Below are positions 1 to 59,735 of a stretch of 64,000 bases of DNA, one piece after another (position 1 is the stretch's first letter; every line of letters begins with the position of its first letter). Under the pieces are notes generated by a model that saw nothing but the letters and a program-made list of their open reading frames with translations, had not been told where the DNA came from and ran no database searches. The stretch is from Boletus sp. NGJ (lineage: Eukaryota > Basidiomycota > Agaricomycetes > Boletales > Boletaceae), in the NCBI GenBank assembly GCA_019096195.1, contig JAGTXK010000229.1, forward strand, positions 1 through 64,000, written 5' to 3'. The position numbers and the translations under genes are program-made.

Positions 1-273
1 CTAAAATGTGTCTTGTTGTTGTTGCTTATTTCACACACACATGCGCCATGCGCGCATGTGCGCGCTGTATAACTACACTCAACATATCCCTCGTTTTCAT
101 CTGTTCATCGTTTATGCCGCACTCGTCGTTATCAACACTCGATTGTTCATGTTTTATTGCGATGTTGTTGTGGACGCACACATGCGCCATTGGCGCATGT
201 GCGTGGTTTGCTATGTTGATGTTACCTGTACCCTATGGTAGCCCTTACCCAATTAGATTAGATCCCTTAAAAT
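1..273. repeat. subtelomeric repeat unit A, copy 1
   Basis: This stretch recurs in the same orientation at 1469-1741 (offset 1468) with only about four mismatches in 270 bases by eye. It is rich in self-complementary GCGCATGTGCGC motifs and short runs of GTT, and all reading frames look non-coding. It sits at the left edge of the window next to telomere-type repeats, which fits a recently duplicated subtelomeric unit. The copy may start to the left of the window. Confidence 0.9.
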
Positions 274-429
274 GACACGTGATTGCGGGGTCTGAAAGCG
301 GCTGCGTGGGAGAAATTCCTTAGTATGGCGGTCATAAGTCCTGAAAAGGAAATTTCATGAGCCAGTCTGCCCAGGACAATACAAAATCATGGTGAGGTGT
401 ACATAAGCCGGTTAGTATGTCCTAAGGTG

Positions 430-486
430 GTGTGGGTTTAGGGGTGTGCGCCCCTACTGATGAGACCAAAAGGTCGAAACCCATGA
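430..486 (+). ncRNA. hammerhead ribozyme, type III topology
   Basis: The conserved core is complete: CTGATGA at 457-463 and GAAA at 476-479. Stem I is a perfect closed hairpin, TAGGGG (439-444) with CCCCTA (451-456) and a 6-nt loop. Stem II is GACC (464-467) with GGTC (472-475) and an AAAA loop. Stem III is open and pairs about 431-437 (TGTGGGT) with 479-485 (ACCCATG), with two G-U wobbles. The cleavage triplet is GTT, so cleavage is predicted after base 438. All invariant core bases are present. The RNA would act in cis to process transcripts of the surrounding repeat. Confidence 0.88.
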
Positions 487-509
487 TCGGGCCTTTAGTG
501 TAGATAAAC

Positions 510-680
510 ACTAGGGTGGTAGCTAAGGCTATACACCGCCGGCGTTTGGTTAACGACCGGTAGACAATATCTCTAGTGTGACCCAAAAAGGTAATCCCTT
601 GCCGAGGCAACAGCGTTATCGCCTTACCGCCGGTAACGCCTCGCCTCGCCGCTTCGCGGCTCGGCTCGGCTCCCTAACCG
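510..680. repeat. repeat block C, copy 1 (second copy at about 1741-1905)
   Basis: The segment runs from the TAGGGTGG/TAGCTAAGGCTA motif through GACCGGTAGACAATATCTC and GTAATCCCTTGC to the GC-rich CGCCTCGCC hairpin region and a final CCCTAAC. It recurs in the same orientation at 1741-1905 with several differences. Both copies end at a CCCTAA unit, which suggests the block has repeatedly been joined to telomeric sequence. Confidence 0.8.
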
Positions 681-983
681 GTTAACTTAGGAACCTTAAC
701 GGTGGCACACCCCCGGCAAGGGGTGACGATAATATTACGTAAGTGATCTAGACCGATCCCGGAGATAGCCGAAGAAGCACCGGCCCGAAGTCCTCGTCGG
801 CCCGTCTCGGTTACTACGCCACCCGGTCTCGGCAATTTAATTACCGTCGACCGTGAGAGAACTCTCACGTAGAAGCGCAACCGGAAAGATCCGAGTGTTA
901 CCGGCAAGATCCGGTTTAATCTCCGTTGCGTCTATCTCCGCTTCTCACGTTATTATTAATGGTCCGTGCGCGATTCTTTCCCG

Positions 984-990
984 TATAAAT
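984..990 (+). promoter_or_regulatory. TATA box upstream of the second hammerhead
   Basis: TATAAAT lies about 40 bases before the first base of the 1026-1102 ribozyme. With usual TATA-to-start spacing, transcription would begin just 5' of the ribozyme, so self-cleavage would define a transcript end near the start. This is an inference from position only. Confidence 0.45.
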
Positions 991-1025
991 ACAGGTAAGA
1001 ATCAAGAAATTCTTTTCTACTATTC

Positions 1026-1102
1026 GCCAGAGGTCTGATGAGTCCCCGGACGAAATAGGTGGTGTTGGAAGCGGAGGCTCCAACGCCTATTACCTATCTG
1101 GC
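1026..1102 (+). ncRNA. hammerhead ribozyme, type I topology
   Basis: The core is CTGATGA at 1035-1041 and GAAA at 1052-1055. Stem II is GTC/GAC around a CCCG loop (1042-1051). Stem III is a closed hairpin: ATAGGT (1055-1060) with GCCTAT (1085-1090), and an inner GTTGGA/TCCAAC helix with a 9-nt loop. The base after stem III is T1091, giving the cleavable triplet ATT. Stem I is open: GCCAGAGGT (1026-1034) pairs with ACCT-AT-CTGGC (1092-1102), leaving a 2-nt bulge on the 3' strand. An alternative stem III using ATAGGT/ACCTAT also exists and would compete. Confidence 0.85.
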
Positions 1103-1155
1103 CCCCCATCCTACACATATCCCCCTCGCTGCTCGCTTCGCTCGCAGCTCGGCCC

Positions 1156-1182
1156 CCCTAACCCTAACCCTAAACCTAACCC
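1156..1182 (+). repeat. interstitial telomere-type repeat (CCCTAA, about 4.5 units)
   Basis: Three perfect CCCTAA units are followed by a slightly degenerate unit and a half unit. CCCTAA/TTAGGG is the usual fungal telomere repeat. The C-rich strand reads left to right, as it does at the left end of a chromosome. Two further CCCTAA units lie at 1900-1905 and 1911-1916. Confidence 0.9.
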
Positions 1183-1284
1183 TTCAGAGTGTAAATATAA
1201 GGTACTAAAATAATGTACACAGGACATGTATGTGAAAAGAGGAATGCAATGCATTCCAGGCGCAGATGACAACGACGCCATTGT

Positions 1285-1400
1285 CGAGTGTTGATAACGA
1301 CAACTGCGGCATAAACAATGAACAGATGAAAACGAGGAATATGTTGAGTGTAGTTATACCGCGCGCACATGCGCACATGTGCGCATGTGCGCGCTGTCTA
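1285..1400 (-). repeat. inverted partial copy of unit A
   Basis: Read on the minus strand, this stretch matches the central part of unit A, from the GCGCATGTGCGC palindromes through the segment around TCGTTTTCATCTGTTCAT up to the CAACACTCGA motif, and then diverges. Together with copy 2 it makes an inverted repeat with arms about 100-180 bases apart. It lies immediately to the right of the CCCTAA tract. Confidence 0.8.
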
Positions 1401-1468
1401 TAGTACGACACACCTATCAACTGAGCAGATGCTCTCATGGCGCATCGGCGTGTTTGTCGTATAAATGT

Positions 1469-1741
1469 GAAACATGTGTCTTGTTGTTGTTGCTTATTTC
1501 ACACGCACATGCGCCATGCGCGCATGTGCGCGCTGTATAACTACACTCAACATATTCCTCGTTTTCATCTGTTCATCGTTTATGCCGCAGTCGTCGTTAT
1601 CAACACTCGATTGTTCATGTTTTATTGCGATGTTGTTGTGGACGCGCACATGCGCCATTGGCGCATGTGCGTGGTTTGCTATGTTGATGTTACCTGTACC
1701 CTATGGTAGCCCTTACCCAATTAGATTAGATCCCTTAAAAT
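1469..1741. repeat. subtelomeric repeat unit A, copy 2
   Basis: Near-identical direct copy of bases 1-273. Here it is followed directly by a second copy of the block found at about 510-680, so the roughly 235 bases that carry the first hammerhead ribozyme are missing from this copy. The high identity points to a recent duplication or to ongoing exchange between subtelomeres. Confidence 0.9.
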
Positions 1742-1905
1742 AGGGTGCTAGCTAAGGCTAGACACTGCCGGCGAATTGGTACTCGACCGGTAGACAATAT
1801 CTCTAGTGTGACCCATAAGGTAATCCCTTGCGGAGGCACAGCGTTATCGCCTTACCGCTGGTAACGCCTCGCCTCGCCACTTCACAGCTCGGGTCGGCTC
1901 CCTAA
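1741..1905. repeat. repeat block C, copy 2
   Basis: Second copy of the block at about 510-680, fused directly to the end of unit A copy 2. It ends in CCCTAA at 1900-1905, with another CCCTAA at 1911-1916. Confidence 0.8.
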
Positions 1906-1916
1906 CTCAACCCTAA

Positions 1917-2150
1917 GGAGAACCTCTGGAAGAGCCAGAAGGAGAAGAGGTTGATGAAGAGGAAGAATGGGCCGGGATAATGGAAACTGGCGACGACAGT
2001 GACAATAATATCAGTGATGGTGACGAAAGTGAGTCGAGTGATGACGAGGAGCCTGATCGAGTGGTTGCAGATGGAAGGGGAGGAGCTGGACATGGACATT
2101 CTCGCTCGCAAGGGTTATGGTGCCCTATAGGTCACTATGATATGACATGA
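1917..2150 (+). CDS. open frame with very acidic tail, 5' end missing (fragment)
   Basis: An open frame of 77 codons starts immediately after the last CCCTAA unit and ends in TGA at 2148-2150. It has no ATG near its 5' end. The peptide is very rich in Glu, Asp and Ser for its first 50 residues, then Gly, His and Arg, ending in CPIGHYDMT. Acidic tails of this kind occur at the C-termini of several fungal transposases and helicases. I cannot name the family. The abrupt start at a telomere-type unit suggests a gene truncated by breakage or insertion. Confidence 0.35.
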   Translation, partial: GEPLEEPEGEEVDEEEEWAGIMETGDDSDNNISDGDESESSDDEEPDRVVADGRGGAGHGHSRSQGLWCPIGHYDMT

Positions 2151-2376
2151 TATTCTATGGTATGATGAAAGGCCGGGTCAGTAGCTCTGCTCTCGTTCGC
2201 ATCAACAATATCAGCACCACGTGGGAGCTGTAACGAGGCGCCAGAGTTTATCACACTTTTGCAATATTTGTGATGCAACAGCAAGCAAGTTGCAGCAGTT
2301 GACGCGACGTCCTTCCTCGTGGGAATTGACACTGACGCGTCGACTTCAGTTAGGGTACAGTTCAAATCATACCACC

Positions 2377-3897
2377 ATGTCGGAGGATGCGATCCTACCC
2401 ATCCCTAATCTGAGTCTTCCTCAGCATGTTTTCATCTTACTTTCTCCGTCGCTCAAACACCTCCACGACAACGCCCAGAATTCGTTGTTAGACGGGATCA
2501 AAACGGACAGTACGTCATTTCGTTCGCTGACAAGAAGCCGTTCCACTAGAGCCTCCGTTTGCGATCAGAAATGGCCCCATACTATCGACTTATCACGTCC
2601 TCGAATGCTCTCATTTCCGATCCTGCACTTCTTGACGAGATGGAGAAGGCGAACGAGGAAGAGCTCAAAAAGCTGGACGAACGGCTCGCCGAGGCTGAGA
2701 AGACGGAAGGAGAGTCAGAAATATCGGATGCGCTCAAAGCACGCGCGAATCACCTGACGCGAATAGGTGACAGGGTATGCCTGTGACTCCTACCCCACAC
2801 AGCTCAGTTGACCCCTTTAGCAGGAGCGTGCAATTGCAGCGCAGAAGCTGGCCCTTGAGAAAACCCCCGGGCTTGGATCAAGGATAGATATATCCCTCAC
2901 TCTCATCCGGATCGGCTTATTTTTTGGGGATAACGTTCTCATTACCGAGAACCTTGAAAAGGCGGAAAAGTTGGCCACCTCTCTGATGCATCACGTACCA
3001 CTTAATAGCACCCTGTAGATTCATTGAAGAGGGCGGTGACTGGGACAGACGAAATCGCCTCAAAGTTTACCGCGGACTGCACGCTGTCTCTATTCGTCAA
3101 TTCAAGACCGGCAGCGAGCTCTTGCTTGACGCGCTGTCCACGTTCACAGCTACAGAACTAATCTCCTATACCGACTTTGTCGCTCTCACGATCATAGTCA
3201 ACTCATTGACCCTCAAGCGACCAGATCTCAAGAAAAAGGTAACTGTCTTCCATCATGCTTCGTACCATAAGCTGGGAAGGCTGATTGTTGTTTCAGCTCA
3301 TCACCGCCCCAGATGTTATCTCCGTCTTGCCCGAACTCCCTGTCCTCGGTGACCTTGTAAACAACTTATACGACTGCCATTACGCCAAGTTTTTTGTCGC
3401 ACTAGGTACGCACTTTCTGTGCCCACAATAGTGCAATGACTGATCGATCCTCATTCACCTTTACCCGAATGGTTGTCCTCCACCCCTTGACCACGCCCAC
3501 AGCTACCCTCGAGCAGACTTACCTCCTGCCCTCGCGGTTATTATCTTCGCATACCCGTTACTACATCCGAGAGATGCGAATCCTCGCATACAGTCAGCTG
3601 TTGGAATCGTACCGTAGCGTCACGCTGGAGAGTCTCAGTGGGGCATTCGGAGTCAGCGTTGATTTCATTGACAGGCAAGTTGAAGTTCATTTCCGGAGAA
3701 TACGATGACTCAATGAGGGATTCAGCGAGCTGTCGCGGTTTATTGCCAATGGACGATTGCACTGCACGATTGACAAGGTACATGGAATTGTGGAAACGAC
3801 GCGACCGTCACTCAAGAACGCTCAATATGAGAAAGTAATAAAGCAGGGTGATATTCTCCTCAATTCCATACAGCGATTGAGCAAAGTGTTGCATTAA
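2377..3897 (+). CDS. rpn7: 26S proteasome regulatory lid subunit Rpn7 (PSMD6)
   Basis: Rpn7 is a PCI-domain scaffold subunit of the 19S lid that helps assemble the lid and positions Rpn11. Predicted exons are 2377-2509, 2569-2774, 2824-2969, 3019-3238, 3297-3405, 3503-3674 and 3726-3897. They join to an open frame of 385 residues, matching the usual family length of about 390. Family landmarks are present in order: MAPYY near residue 46, LLRIGLFF-like helices (here [11 protein letters not shown]), [15 protein letters not shown], the TPR-like middle, [20 protein letters not shown], and the winged-helix end [15 protein letters not shown]. The intron at 2970 uses a GTTGGC donor and the one at 3675 a GC-AG pair (GCAAGT). 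The start ATG at 2377 matches the family N-terminus. Confidence 0.95.
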
Positions 3898-56963: not shown

Positions 56964-59735
56964 TTAATGTATCAATCCCTTGAGCCAGCCCTTGGCCGAC
57001 AACCCTTCCAGCTCTAGTGAACCGATCCCGGTCCGTTTTCCTTTTCGCCACACTTCCACGAGACCTCTTGCTTCGTATGGCAGGATGTCAGTGTTGAGGG
57101 TCCCAACAGTAATATGAAGGGTGTCTCGAACATCAGCCGGCAATGTGGAGACGAACTCATGCTTTTCTTGTCCTGGATCAGCTTCGTTGTCGGCTTCTTT
57201 GGCAACTTCCAAGTCTTCGACGGTCAATGCCATAACCCTGTTATTCCAAACAAGGTGTCCGAGAGTAAATGAGAAGATGGGGTGTGTCGGCAATCGATCA
57301 AGTGCGGTACACCGATCCCAAAGGTCTACGTCCGCGGGCAGGCCAGCCCTGTGTGCGATGGTGATATGAGGTCGATCGACGACCCGTTTATCGCTGACCA
57401 ATTTGAGCCAAAACGTCTTGCCATCATACGGGAGGTCTTCTTCTTGTTCCATCTGGGGTGCGACGATGGCCCCGAGGTCTATTTCGGGCAATATCGCAAA
57501 GTATCGTGGTGATGTAGGCGCTTTCGTCTCCTTCTCCTTCTTCTCTGCCCCTTTCTTCGTCGCTGGCGTATATCCTTTTGCGACTGCCACGGCTTCGTCG
57601 ACTTTCTCCTGGCTGGGTCGCTCCAAGCCAAGGATGTTAACGCATCCATCGACCGCACGAGCCACTGCCGCTTCGAGCAGCTCGCTAACATTCATCTTGA
57701 TGCTGGCGTCTACTTCGGAGTCAGCAAGCTTTTCCGTGTCGTGGAGGAATTGCCAGATAACGTCTTCATGCGACTTTCCAACCTTGTCAAATTGTAGGGT
57801 CTGGTGTTTGTCGCCACGATCTGAGATACGATTTTCACATACTCGAAATATTGTCGCTCGCGGCTGGTCCAGAGTCCAATATAGCGCGAGTAGGCGGACT
57901 GGTGGATGGATTTTGGCCACAGCGTCGCGCAATGCCTCTCGGTGCTGTCGCAGATGGTTGTTCCTACATATGAATTTTGTGAACAAACACTCCATGAAGT
58001 GAAATCGTAAACTAACTTGTCAGCGATAACAACATCATGTTGTTTGAGGAGATTGGTAACATTTTTGATAAAGCTGTGTGCCGACTTCTTCTTGGTTTGC
58101 AGGTCATCACTTTGGGTATGTCCGAACCCAAAAAGATGGCTGAGTGCAACAGAGACCGACGTCTTGCCTGGGTTTCGGCAAGATCAACTTCATGACCATC
58201 GAGAGAGCAGGGATCGACTCACCACACCCTGGGACAGCAACGGGCACGATGATGGTCTTACCAAACTCCTTAACGACGTGCTCTGGCTCCGCGAGGTCAG
58301 ATAGATCCGTCTTCCCATGCCCGGCGCTCAGCCACCTCAAAAATCGCTCTCGAGTGGCTATGATTCCCTTTCCTTGCGCATACCCCTGGAAGGCACTACG
58401 GTTTGCTCGAATCTCATTCTTGACCCACTTGAGATAAATCTGCGTCTCCTTGCGCTTCATCTTGGACGTGGGAAGTTTGGCGTCATCGAGTGAGCCCCCG
58501 GTGGACAAGAGCGACTTTGTGATTTCCCGCCAATCGCGGTACATCATATACGGCTCGTCAAACTTCACCTTGAAGAAGAACGAAGAACCAGGTGGATACG
58601 GTGGTCGTTTGTCACGAGACGTCGAGCCAGGTTTCGGGTCAACGATGCGGGTGCGAACGACGAACCCTTCCAGCGGCTCTCCTTTCCATTTTCCCGTTTC
58701 GGCAATCCCGTCAGTGAATGCTTTCACTTCTGCTAGTGTGTCGTATGTAATGGTCGCCGTCTTCAAGAAGCCCCACTCTTCTGCGAACGCATCGATGACT
58801 TGCGTAGGGAGGGTGTGGAAGTCCTTGCGAGTCTCATTTATGCCATGTAGATAAAGGCCAGACTTCTCTAGCGGATAAGCTAATACGTGTTCCTCAAAGT
58901 CGTCATCGCAGAGCTTGCACGAATCATTAGCTCGCGAATCCAAACAATCTCCGGGCAAAGATCTACCTCTGCTATTGCAGTCCAGTTCTTCTCCCAGAGG
59001 GCGGCTGCGAGTTGCTCTTCCGTTTTCCCCTTTGATGCGATATGCGTTTTGAGCCATCTATGACCGGCTTGTGAATGTGTCTCTAGGACGCCACCCATCT
59101 CTCCTAGGGCGTGTTTGGACGTGACAATCAAGTCGGAAGGCGAGATAGCAGCAACAAATATGATGCAGCCATTTGACTTCATCGACAACGTGTATTCTGG
59201 ACCAGTGTGCGCCTCCAAGGACGACCACTGCCATGCACAAACGACAAACGACAAAGAAAGGAATGGAATCAGGAACCACTTTCTTCGCAAATCAAGACAA
59301 CTTTGAGCTTACGTCCGTCCAAGGCACCTCCCCGATGTTGAAGAACTTGTCATATCCACGGGCGACAATCTGATATCGAGGTTGATCGCTACCTGCCTCC
59401 TTGTTCAGCTCTCTTGTGAATAGACCTCGGGCGAGCGTCGGGAACGGCGAAGGAACGTCATAGTACTTGAACTCGCTCATCTTCCAGCTCCGAATCTTGA
59501 CCGTGGGGTCCGATGGCACGGGATAAACAGTCGATCGAATGAGCTTGGGTGACTTTTGTGAGATCCGATGCAGGTCAGCGATAAGCTGAGAGTCTTGGAC
59601 GTTGAAACGCGATTCGGTCATCGTGGAATGTGCCCAGCGAAAACGAGACGCGTCAAAGCGGACGGATGTACGTCTCGTTGTTGGGCATATGTACTGAAGA
59701 AAACGCGGTGCTGATGAAGTCAGAATGTTGGGCAC
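56964..59735 (-). CDS. trl1: tRNA ligase Trl1 (ligase, kinase and cyclic phosphodiesterase)
   Basis: Fungal Trl1 joins tRNA halves after intron removal and splices HAC1/XBP1-type mRNA in the unfolded-protein response. The ligase domain has SWKMSEFKYYDVPSPFPTLA, RYQIVARGYDKFFNIGEVPW and the nucleotidyl-Lys motif KSNG (SMKSNGCIIFV). The kinase P-loop VAVPGCGKTSVSVAL is made by splicing out 58168-58222, which interrupts the Walker A motif. The C-terminal phosphodiesterase has two HxT motifs, RPHITIAHR and LHITVGT. About 850 residues in at least five exons, normal for the family. The first ATG (59735) adds a 38-residue Arg/Ser/Thr-rich leader before a second ATG at 59621 where family similarity starts. 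Confidence 0.95.

Follow-up and report, generated by a model that had tools for sequence, protein, structure and literature searches.

A type III hammerhead motif in a probable telomere-attached, retrozyme-like non-coding element of Boletus sp. NGJ

Introduction

Penelope-like elements that lack an endonuclease are described as telomere-associated in rotifers, fungi, protists and plants, where they apparently prime at exposed chromosome termini, the truncated 5' end then gaining telomere repeats (PMC3846280). In the button mushroom, Penelope-like elements have been linked to telomeres as well (PMC7473861). Terminons are portrayed as carrying a hammerhead and then reverse-complement telomeric repeats at their end (PMC6431247). 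The hammerheads of Penelope elements and Terminons are given as minimal type I forms, the role of which was called a mystery (PMC7761336), and minimal forms are described also in PMC6155905. For a lizard Penelope element, the hammerhead was reported to cut only with protein and to be dispensable for insertion in vitro (PMC11167929).

Plant retrozymes, according to PMC4918200, contain type III hammerheads, and circular RNA may be the source of their solo, monomeric and multimeric cDNA; for the metazoan non-LTR retrozymes LINEs or Penelope-like elements have been proposed as helpers (PMC11722881). According to the available passages of reviews, type III hammerheads are found mainly in plants, prokaryotes, phages and infectious circular RNAs; one passage adds insects. 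No telomeric element of a fungus with a type III hammerhead came up in a literature search, which is weak evidence of absence given that key papers on Penelope hammerheads and Terminons lay outside its coverage.

Here we analysed a stretch of 64,000 nucleotides from Boletus sp. NGJ (assembly GCA_019096195.1, contig JAGTXK010000229.1, positions 1 to 64,000 of the forward strand), hereafter called the window. An original prediction, made from the letters of this DNA, had placed a type III hammerhead ribozyme in a subtelomeric repeat near its start and had assigned the DNA to a fungal chromosome.

Results

The type III hammerhead motif

Direct reading confirmed the core bases, the coordinates and the three stems named in the original prediction. 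The motif (Table 1) reads TGTGGGTT up to the predicted cleavage position and continues with TAGGGG-TGTGCG-CCCCTA-CTGATGA-GACC-AAAA-GGTC-GAA-ACCCATG; stem I consists of six perfect pairs and adjoins CTGATGA, stem II of four pairs with an AAAA loop, and stem III of U16.1-A15.1, GGG/CCC and extensions. NUH is the rule for the hammerhead cleavage triplet, and the CUGAUGA...GAAA core is accompanied in the sequence by the NUH-type triplet GUU at the predicted site, which differs from the fast GUC triplet. The Rfam model RF00008 (Hammerhead_3) aligned over its full length (1-54 of 54) with 43.0 bits in a search of 3 kb, corresponding to E 2.3e-7 for 3 kb against 4227 families and to E 5.8e-7 genome-wide (32.8 Mb). 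This alignment, together with a fold of three helices in which stems I and II are closed and stem III is open, bore out the type III topology. The covariance match anticipated by the prediction was thus significant, though 5.5 bits short of the curated gathering score of 48.5, and it is this cut-off that explains why a whole-window Rfam scan at gathering thresholds returned no entry.

Genome-wide, at least 11 matches to RF00008 were obtained at E<=0.001, ten of which, including that of the window, had the identical score of 43.0 bits (E 5.8e-7); the count is a lower bound, 67 of 6600 candidates having been scored. The same model gave no match in any of 14 control genomes. Over seven fetched stretches it recovered seven copies at 43.0 bits and an eighth at 31.3 bits, and the old copies L058 and L059, both located in these stretches, yielded no Rfam match at E<=0.05. 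Folded as RNA, positions 427-490 formed all three stems (-24.6 kcal/mol, z -2.17), an energy that by itself is modestly unusual since 7 of 200 shuffled sequences were equally stable. Judged from its sequence, the motif is a real type III hammerhead motif, for which self-cleavage is predicted.

The hammerhead arms at 434-482 resemble telomere repeats (GGGTTTAGGGG on one side, CCCCTA and ACCC on the other), with one T more than TTAGGG. The idea of trans-cleavage of telomeric RNA, prompted by these arms, was unsupported: GGGTTTAGGG occurred 22 times and GGGTTAGGG 114 times in the fetched stretches, and 21 of the GGGTTTAGGG places are the hammerheads themselves.

Copies and conservation of the motif

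A genome search with positions 1-1200 of the window gave 122 matches and divided this region into module A (3-270) and modules B and C (Table 1). An isolated motif was ruled out, as the hammerhead is a constant component of a repeat: its core was present at 21 distinct places in the fetched stretches, window included, after an earlier pattern scan over 20 fetched stretches had located 19 places, one with an altered stem III.

Table 1. Features at the start of the window, with positions counted from its first nucleotide
Feature	Position	Strand	Remarks
Module B	271..671	+	5'-truncated copy, the 3' 401 nt of a non-coding 931-933 bp unit
Type III hammerhead motif	431..485	+	Rfam RF00008, fold; predicted cleavage between 438 and 439
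GC hairpin, 3'-terminal, of module B	638..670	+	fold
CCCTAAC junction	672..678	+	complement of the telomere G strand; putative priming site
Module C	672..1169	+	terminal repeat (pLTR-like) of the reverse-transcriptase element
TATAAATA box	984..991	+	upstream of the second hammerhead candidate; direct reading
Second hammerhead candidate, type I-like	1026..1102	+	possible cleavage 1091/1092
3'-terminal hairpin of module C	1124..1152	+	fold
Interstitial telomeric repeats, CCCTAA-type	1156..1184	+	after module C; direct reading
Second, shorter 5'-truncated module B copy	1741..1899	+	without the hammerhead, ends in CCCTAAC

Variable sites were compared in the module B rows that were at least 150 nt long and at least 94% identical (21 of 29 rows); 18 of these span the motif and 15 of the 18 are distinct, including the row of the window. 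Among the rows of at least 94% identity, the motif contained no variable site in 55 positions, compared with 29 in 346 elsewhere in the module (Fisher p 0.022). Single tests of three older copies gave 1/55 versus 52/311 (p 0.0015), 1/55 versus 29/195 (p 0.008) and 6/55 versus 54/254 (p 0.09), and all of these p values are to be taken as indicative because the copies have a common history. A core base was changed in one old copy, L058 (GAAA to GGAA). C-to-T plus G-to-A changes made up 21 of 46 substitutions in L060, 16 of 28 in L058 and 35 of 60 in L059. Stem covariation across six sequences amounted to one pair with a double change, a value reached by 90 of 500 shuffles, and the sole double change comes from L051, at a doubtful site where the homologous stretch ends.

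A chance resemblance to a hammerhead would agree with the score under the Rfam threshold and with a folding z of only -2.17, but it is scarcely credible in view of the full-length match and its genome-wide E value, the absence of matches from the control genomes and the conservation of the motif among copies.

Subtelomeric setting and assembly

The prediction was right about the subtelomeric repeat setting, since the motif lies in a repeat beside CCCTAA-type tracts. As a raw count over contigs of known length with module B or C, 11 of 18 carried a copy no more than 6 kb from one of their ends; the copies on contigs C20 and C114 and at one site on C81 are located deep inside. The interstitial CCCTAA tracts served to set TTAGGG as the telomere unit. 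A four-fold telomere repeat was found 11 times in the genome, always on C20 and C107, and the backward control pattern (GGGATT four times), i.e. another simple repeat, 33 times, so that the telomere-repeat count proves nothing. Mosaic and inverted stretches occur in the assembly around these repeats.

Module A, present at 3-270, 1284-1389 and 1471-1738, is a subtelomeric repeat with abundant GCGCATGTGCGC-like palindromes and often has an inverted partial copy nearby. On C107 (495981-496075, L063), a telomere tract lies about 23 kb inside the contig beside a truncated module C. Deep in C20, two reverse-transcriptase regions stand head to head, minus then plus (L041 at about 7118, L043 at about 6550), representing either fused chromosome ends or a misassembly.

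An open reading frame piece at 56967-57995 of the window matches Pfam PF08302, the fungal tRNA ligase phosphodiesterase domain, in support of the assignment of the DNA to a fungal genome. Enzymes of this class seal 2',3'-cyclic phosphate and 5'-OH ends, which are the ends that hammerheads leave. The presence of this piece in the same window as the hammerhead element is probably a coincidence.

The non-coding unit and its junctions

The motif is situated in the 3' part of the 931-933 bp unit, the longest open reading frame of which encodes 78 amino acids, and no TATA[AT]A promoter element was found in the unit. As in retrozymes, a non-coding unit is combined with a hammerhead in each repeat and with truncated and multimeric genomic copies.

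The junctions were surveyed in 25 module B rows of at least 150 nt, two of them from the window itself; the mosaic copy L040:3864-4206 was retained in the row counts. The same 3' end was reached by 24 rows, the 25th being cut by a contig end, and 22 of these 24 complete ends were followed directly by CCCTAAC. Twelve of the 25 rows started internally, at 12 different positions, and by eye telomere-like repeats could be read directly before six of these; the 12 take in one mosaic row and two rows meeting at an inverted junction. Four older rows of at least 150 nt (two of them identical) all reached the 3' end, with CCCTAAC after one, and the short old copy L051:844-988 is without the 3' end. One recurrent 3' end combined with variable 5' truncation is expected if reverse transcription began on telomere G-strand ends. 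No listed module B copy has its 5' end at the predicted cleavage site, so that retrocopies of cut linear RNA are not seen among them.

C107 carries a tandem array of four whole units, and C20 a single one. The upstream part of the unit gave 12 matches in the genome, of which five reach the 5' edge, and all five are fused head to tail to the hairpin of the preceding copy; in one case, the first C107 unit, this hairpin belongs to a mosaic copy. On C20 the insertion consists, in this order, of telomere repeats, the last ~118 nt of the unit, a full 931 bp unit and again telomere repeats, and thus exceeds one unit in length. Judging by the five head-to-tail joins, a multimeric or circular RNA probably served as the template, much as in plant retrozymes. 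Taken together, the recurrent 3' end, the 5' truncation and the length above one unit are the pattern expected of reverse transcription at chromosome ends on a multimeric or circular RNA. The tandem units could also come from successive insertion or unequal exchange. In the mosaic copies (L040:3864-4206 and L050:1958-2501), short segments of module B take turns with segments of module C; these copies are probably consensus errors of the assembly, otherwise products of repeated template switching, and apart from the row counts and the one C107 join they enter no conclusion.

Unequal exchange and break-induced replication commonly spread subtelomeric repeats, and a passive satellite that moved between chromosome ends in this way, with the hammerhead as an inactive relic, would suit the array, with its two identical units and a third that departs from them by one base, as well as the inverted stretches on C20. 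Such a satellite is, however, an unlikely explanation in the face of the many 5' truncation points opposed to one recurrent 3' end at CCCTAAC, and of a motif that is invariant while the module diverges.

The neighbouring reverse-transcriptase element

An element of about 5 kb that encodes a reverse transcriptase, with no endonuclease detected, has copies adjoining module B. Its region R (4.5 kb) has an open frame of 1282 codons (L047:2054-5899) with the motif YIDD, and a genome search with the reverse-transcriptase part of R gave 18 matches. In every surveyed stretch that holds the 3' end of R, module C comes next and has the same polarity. C46:1682-7185 holds a complete C-R-C arrangement in which the second C is followed by telomere repeats; R plus C thus has a telomeric complement at its 3' end and terminal repeats in tandem (pLTR).

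The PADLOC reverse-transcriptase models (bacterial UG-type) matched about 65 residues in two of two proteins (E about 1e-6), and NCBIfam Drt3a reached only E 0.013-0.028 against the R protein. Searches with the Pfam reverse-transcriptase model, PHROGs and single PDB sequences gave no match to the R protein, and Pfam GIY-YIG none at E<=10 in three R proteins. A PDB profile match of the R protein was rejected, since it pointed to a designed repeat protein and no single stretch passed. The protein contains the motifs DK, YGIPKIHK...RPI and RYIDD, which we take to be Penelope-like, and given the lack of a Pfam match and AF2 models of low pLDDT (36 and 33), the Penelope label rests on these motifs. 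At the level of its sequence, the reverse transcriptase of R looks Penelope/telomerase-like. Module B and the R plus C element have a 3' end of like design, and the enzyme of module B is probably that of R plus C, which would then mobilise it in trans.

The 3' end design common to module B and this element also bears on an origin in which a viroid-like or mycoviral circular RNA equipped with a type III hammerhead was copied into DNA and integrated. Such hammerheads are stated to characterise viroid-like RNAs (PMC11722881), but the common 3' end and the telomere junctions make this origin very improbable, as do the absence of a minus-strand RF00008 match from positions 1-3000 of the window and the lack of matches to the motif pattern, with the stem I loop left open, in one exact-pattern scan of the IMG/VR viral contigs.

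The second hammerhead candidate in module C

Most module C copies are 82-89% identical to that of the window. The module contains TATAAATA and, about 40 nt further on, the motif CTGATGAGTC[C/T]CCGGA[C/T]GAAA. In the fetched stretches, the wider motif was present at 37 places including the window, with TATAAATA at most 60 nt upstream at 35 of them, and its 10 distinct sequences share 55 invariant alignment columns. A type I reading gives stem I as GCCAGA-GGU/ACC-UA-UCUGGC, stem III as AUAGG/CCUAU and the triplet as AUU. The energy minimum differed from this hammerhead fold in all 10 sequences and was one common alternative three-way fold in eight; a second alternative fold also beat the hammerhead fold in six of the 10. 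Given that competing folds are preferred over the hammerhead fold, we call the module C motif a candidate only. The type I model RF00163 gave no match to it, a weak test as its controls likewise were without any match, and RF00008 scored 19 bits (E 1.4) at this place. The TATAAATA box runs straight into a 5' splice-site-like ACAG/GTAAGA (984-1000), which varies between subfamilies.

Discussion

We consider it rather probable that module B of the window is a 5'-truncated copy of a telomere-attached, retrozyme-like non-coding and non-autonomous retroelement that is added to chromosome ends. In the mechanism we propose, the arrays would be transcribed from telomere to centromere, and the type III hammerhead would cut the read-through RNA once per unit at the predicted site, giving unit-length RNA that is perhaps ligated into circles; both the cutting and the circles are suggested by the motif and the tandem units. 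The 3' hairpin would present CCCUAAC for pairing with an exposed TTAGGG overhang, and reverse transcription, probably by the Penelope/telomerase-like enzyme of R plus C, which is without a detectable endonuclease, would start at CCCUAAC, internally in a multimer or circle; the corresponding 3' junction is observed in the genomic copies. Synthesis would halt at variable points, and telomere repeats would then be added to the truncated 5' end, junctions of this kind being found in part of the module B copies.

The hammerhead might instead serve a linear RNA only, by trimming read-through or helping to expose CCCUAAC without forming a circle, in a Terminon-like manner. For Terminons, the folded ribozyme is described as making the telomeric complement accessible (PMC6431247), and the lizard Penelope element was inserted in vitro without ribozyme cleavage (PMC11167929). 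In this unit, however, the type III motif is separated from CCCTAAC by about 190 nt that contain a hairpin of their own, and copies longer than one unit fit a circle or multimer better. A linear RNA is a reasonable possibility, albeit one we lean against.

A further step beyond a telomere-attached, retrozyme-like element would be a fungal telomeric retrozyme in the strict sense, i.e. a circular, hammerhead-processed RNA satellite that borrows the telomerase-like enzyme of a Penelope-type element without endonuclease and adds tandem units to telomeres by rolling reverse transcription. We put this forward tentatively and regard it as somewhat doubtful; if true, it would constitute a ribozyme-dependent route of chromosome-end growth. 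An invariant type III motif in a telomere-attached non-coding element of a fungus brings retrozymes together with telomeric Penelope elements in a single genome, and with a helper candidate that has its own hammerhead-like motif next door, the role of the ribozyme becomes experimentally approachable.

Compared with the described systems, the unit is like the plant LTR retrozymes in being non-coding, of similar size and non-autonomous, with a type III hammerhead and both tandem and truncated copies. It differs from them in its fungal host, in copies that end at telomere-complement repeats and in its helper, which is Ty3-gypsy for plant retrozymes and probably a Penelope/telomerase-like element here. 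Metazoan non-LTR retrozymes are likewise short non-coding units for which LINE or Penelope-like helpers have been proposed, but in the available text of their descriptions they have type I hammerheads, measure ~170-400 nt and are not described as telomere-linked. With Terminons/Athena and other endonuclease-deficient, telomere-associated Penelope-like elements, the locus has in common the telomere-complement repeats at the 3' end, the 5' truncation by telomere repeats, head-to-tail arrays, a hammerhead motif and the lack of a detected endonuclease. In contrast to the minimal type I ribozymes reported for Terminons/Athena (PMC7761336), the ribozyme here is of type III and the unit is non-coding. 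As the hammerheads of Penelope-type elements are of type I in the available passages of the reviews, the type III element of Boletus sp. NGJ departs from the known Penelope-type pattern.
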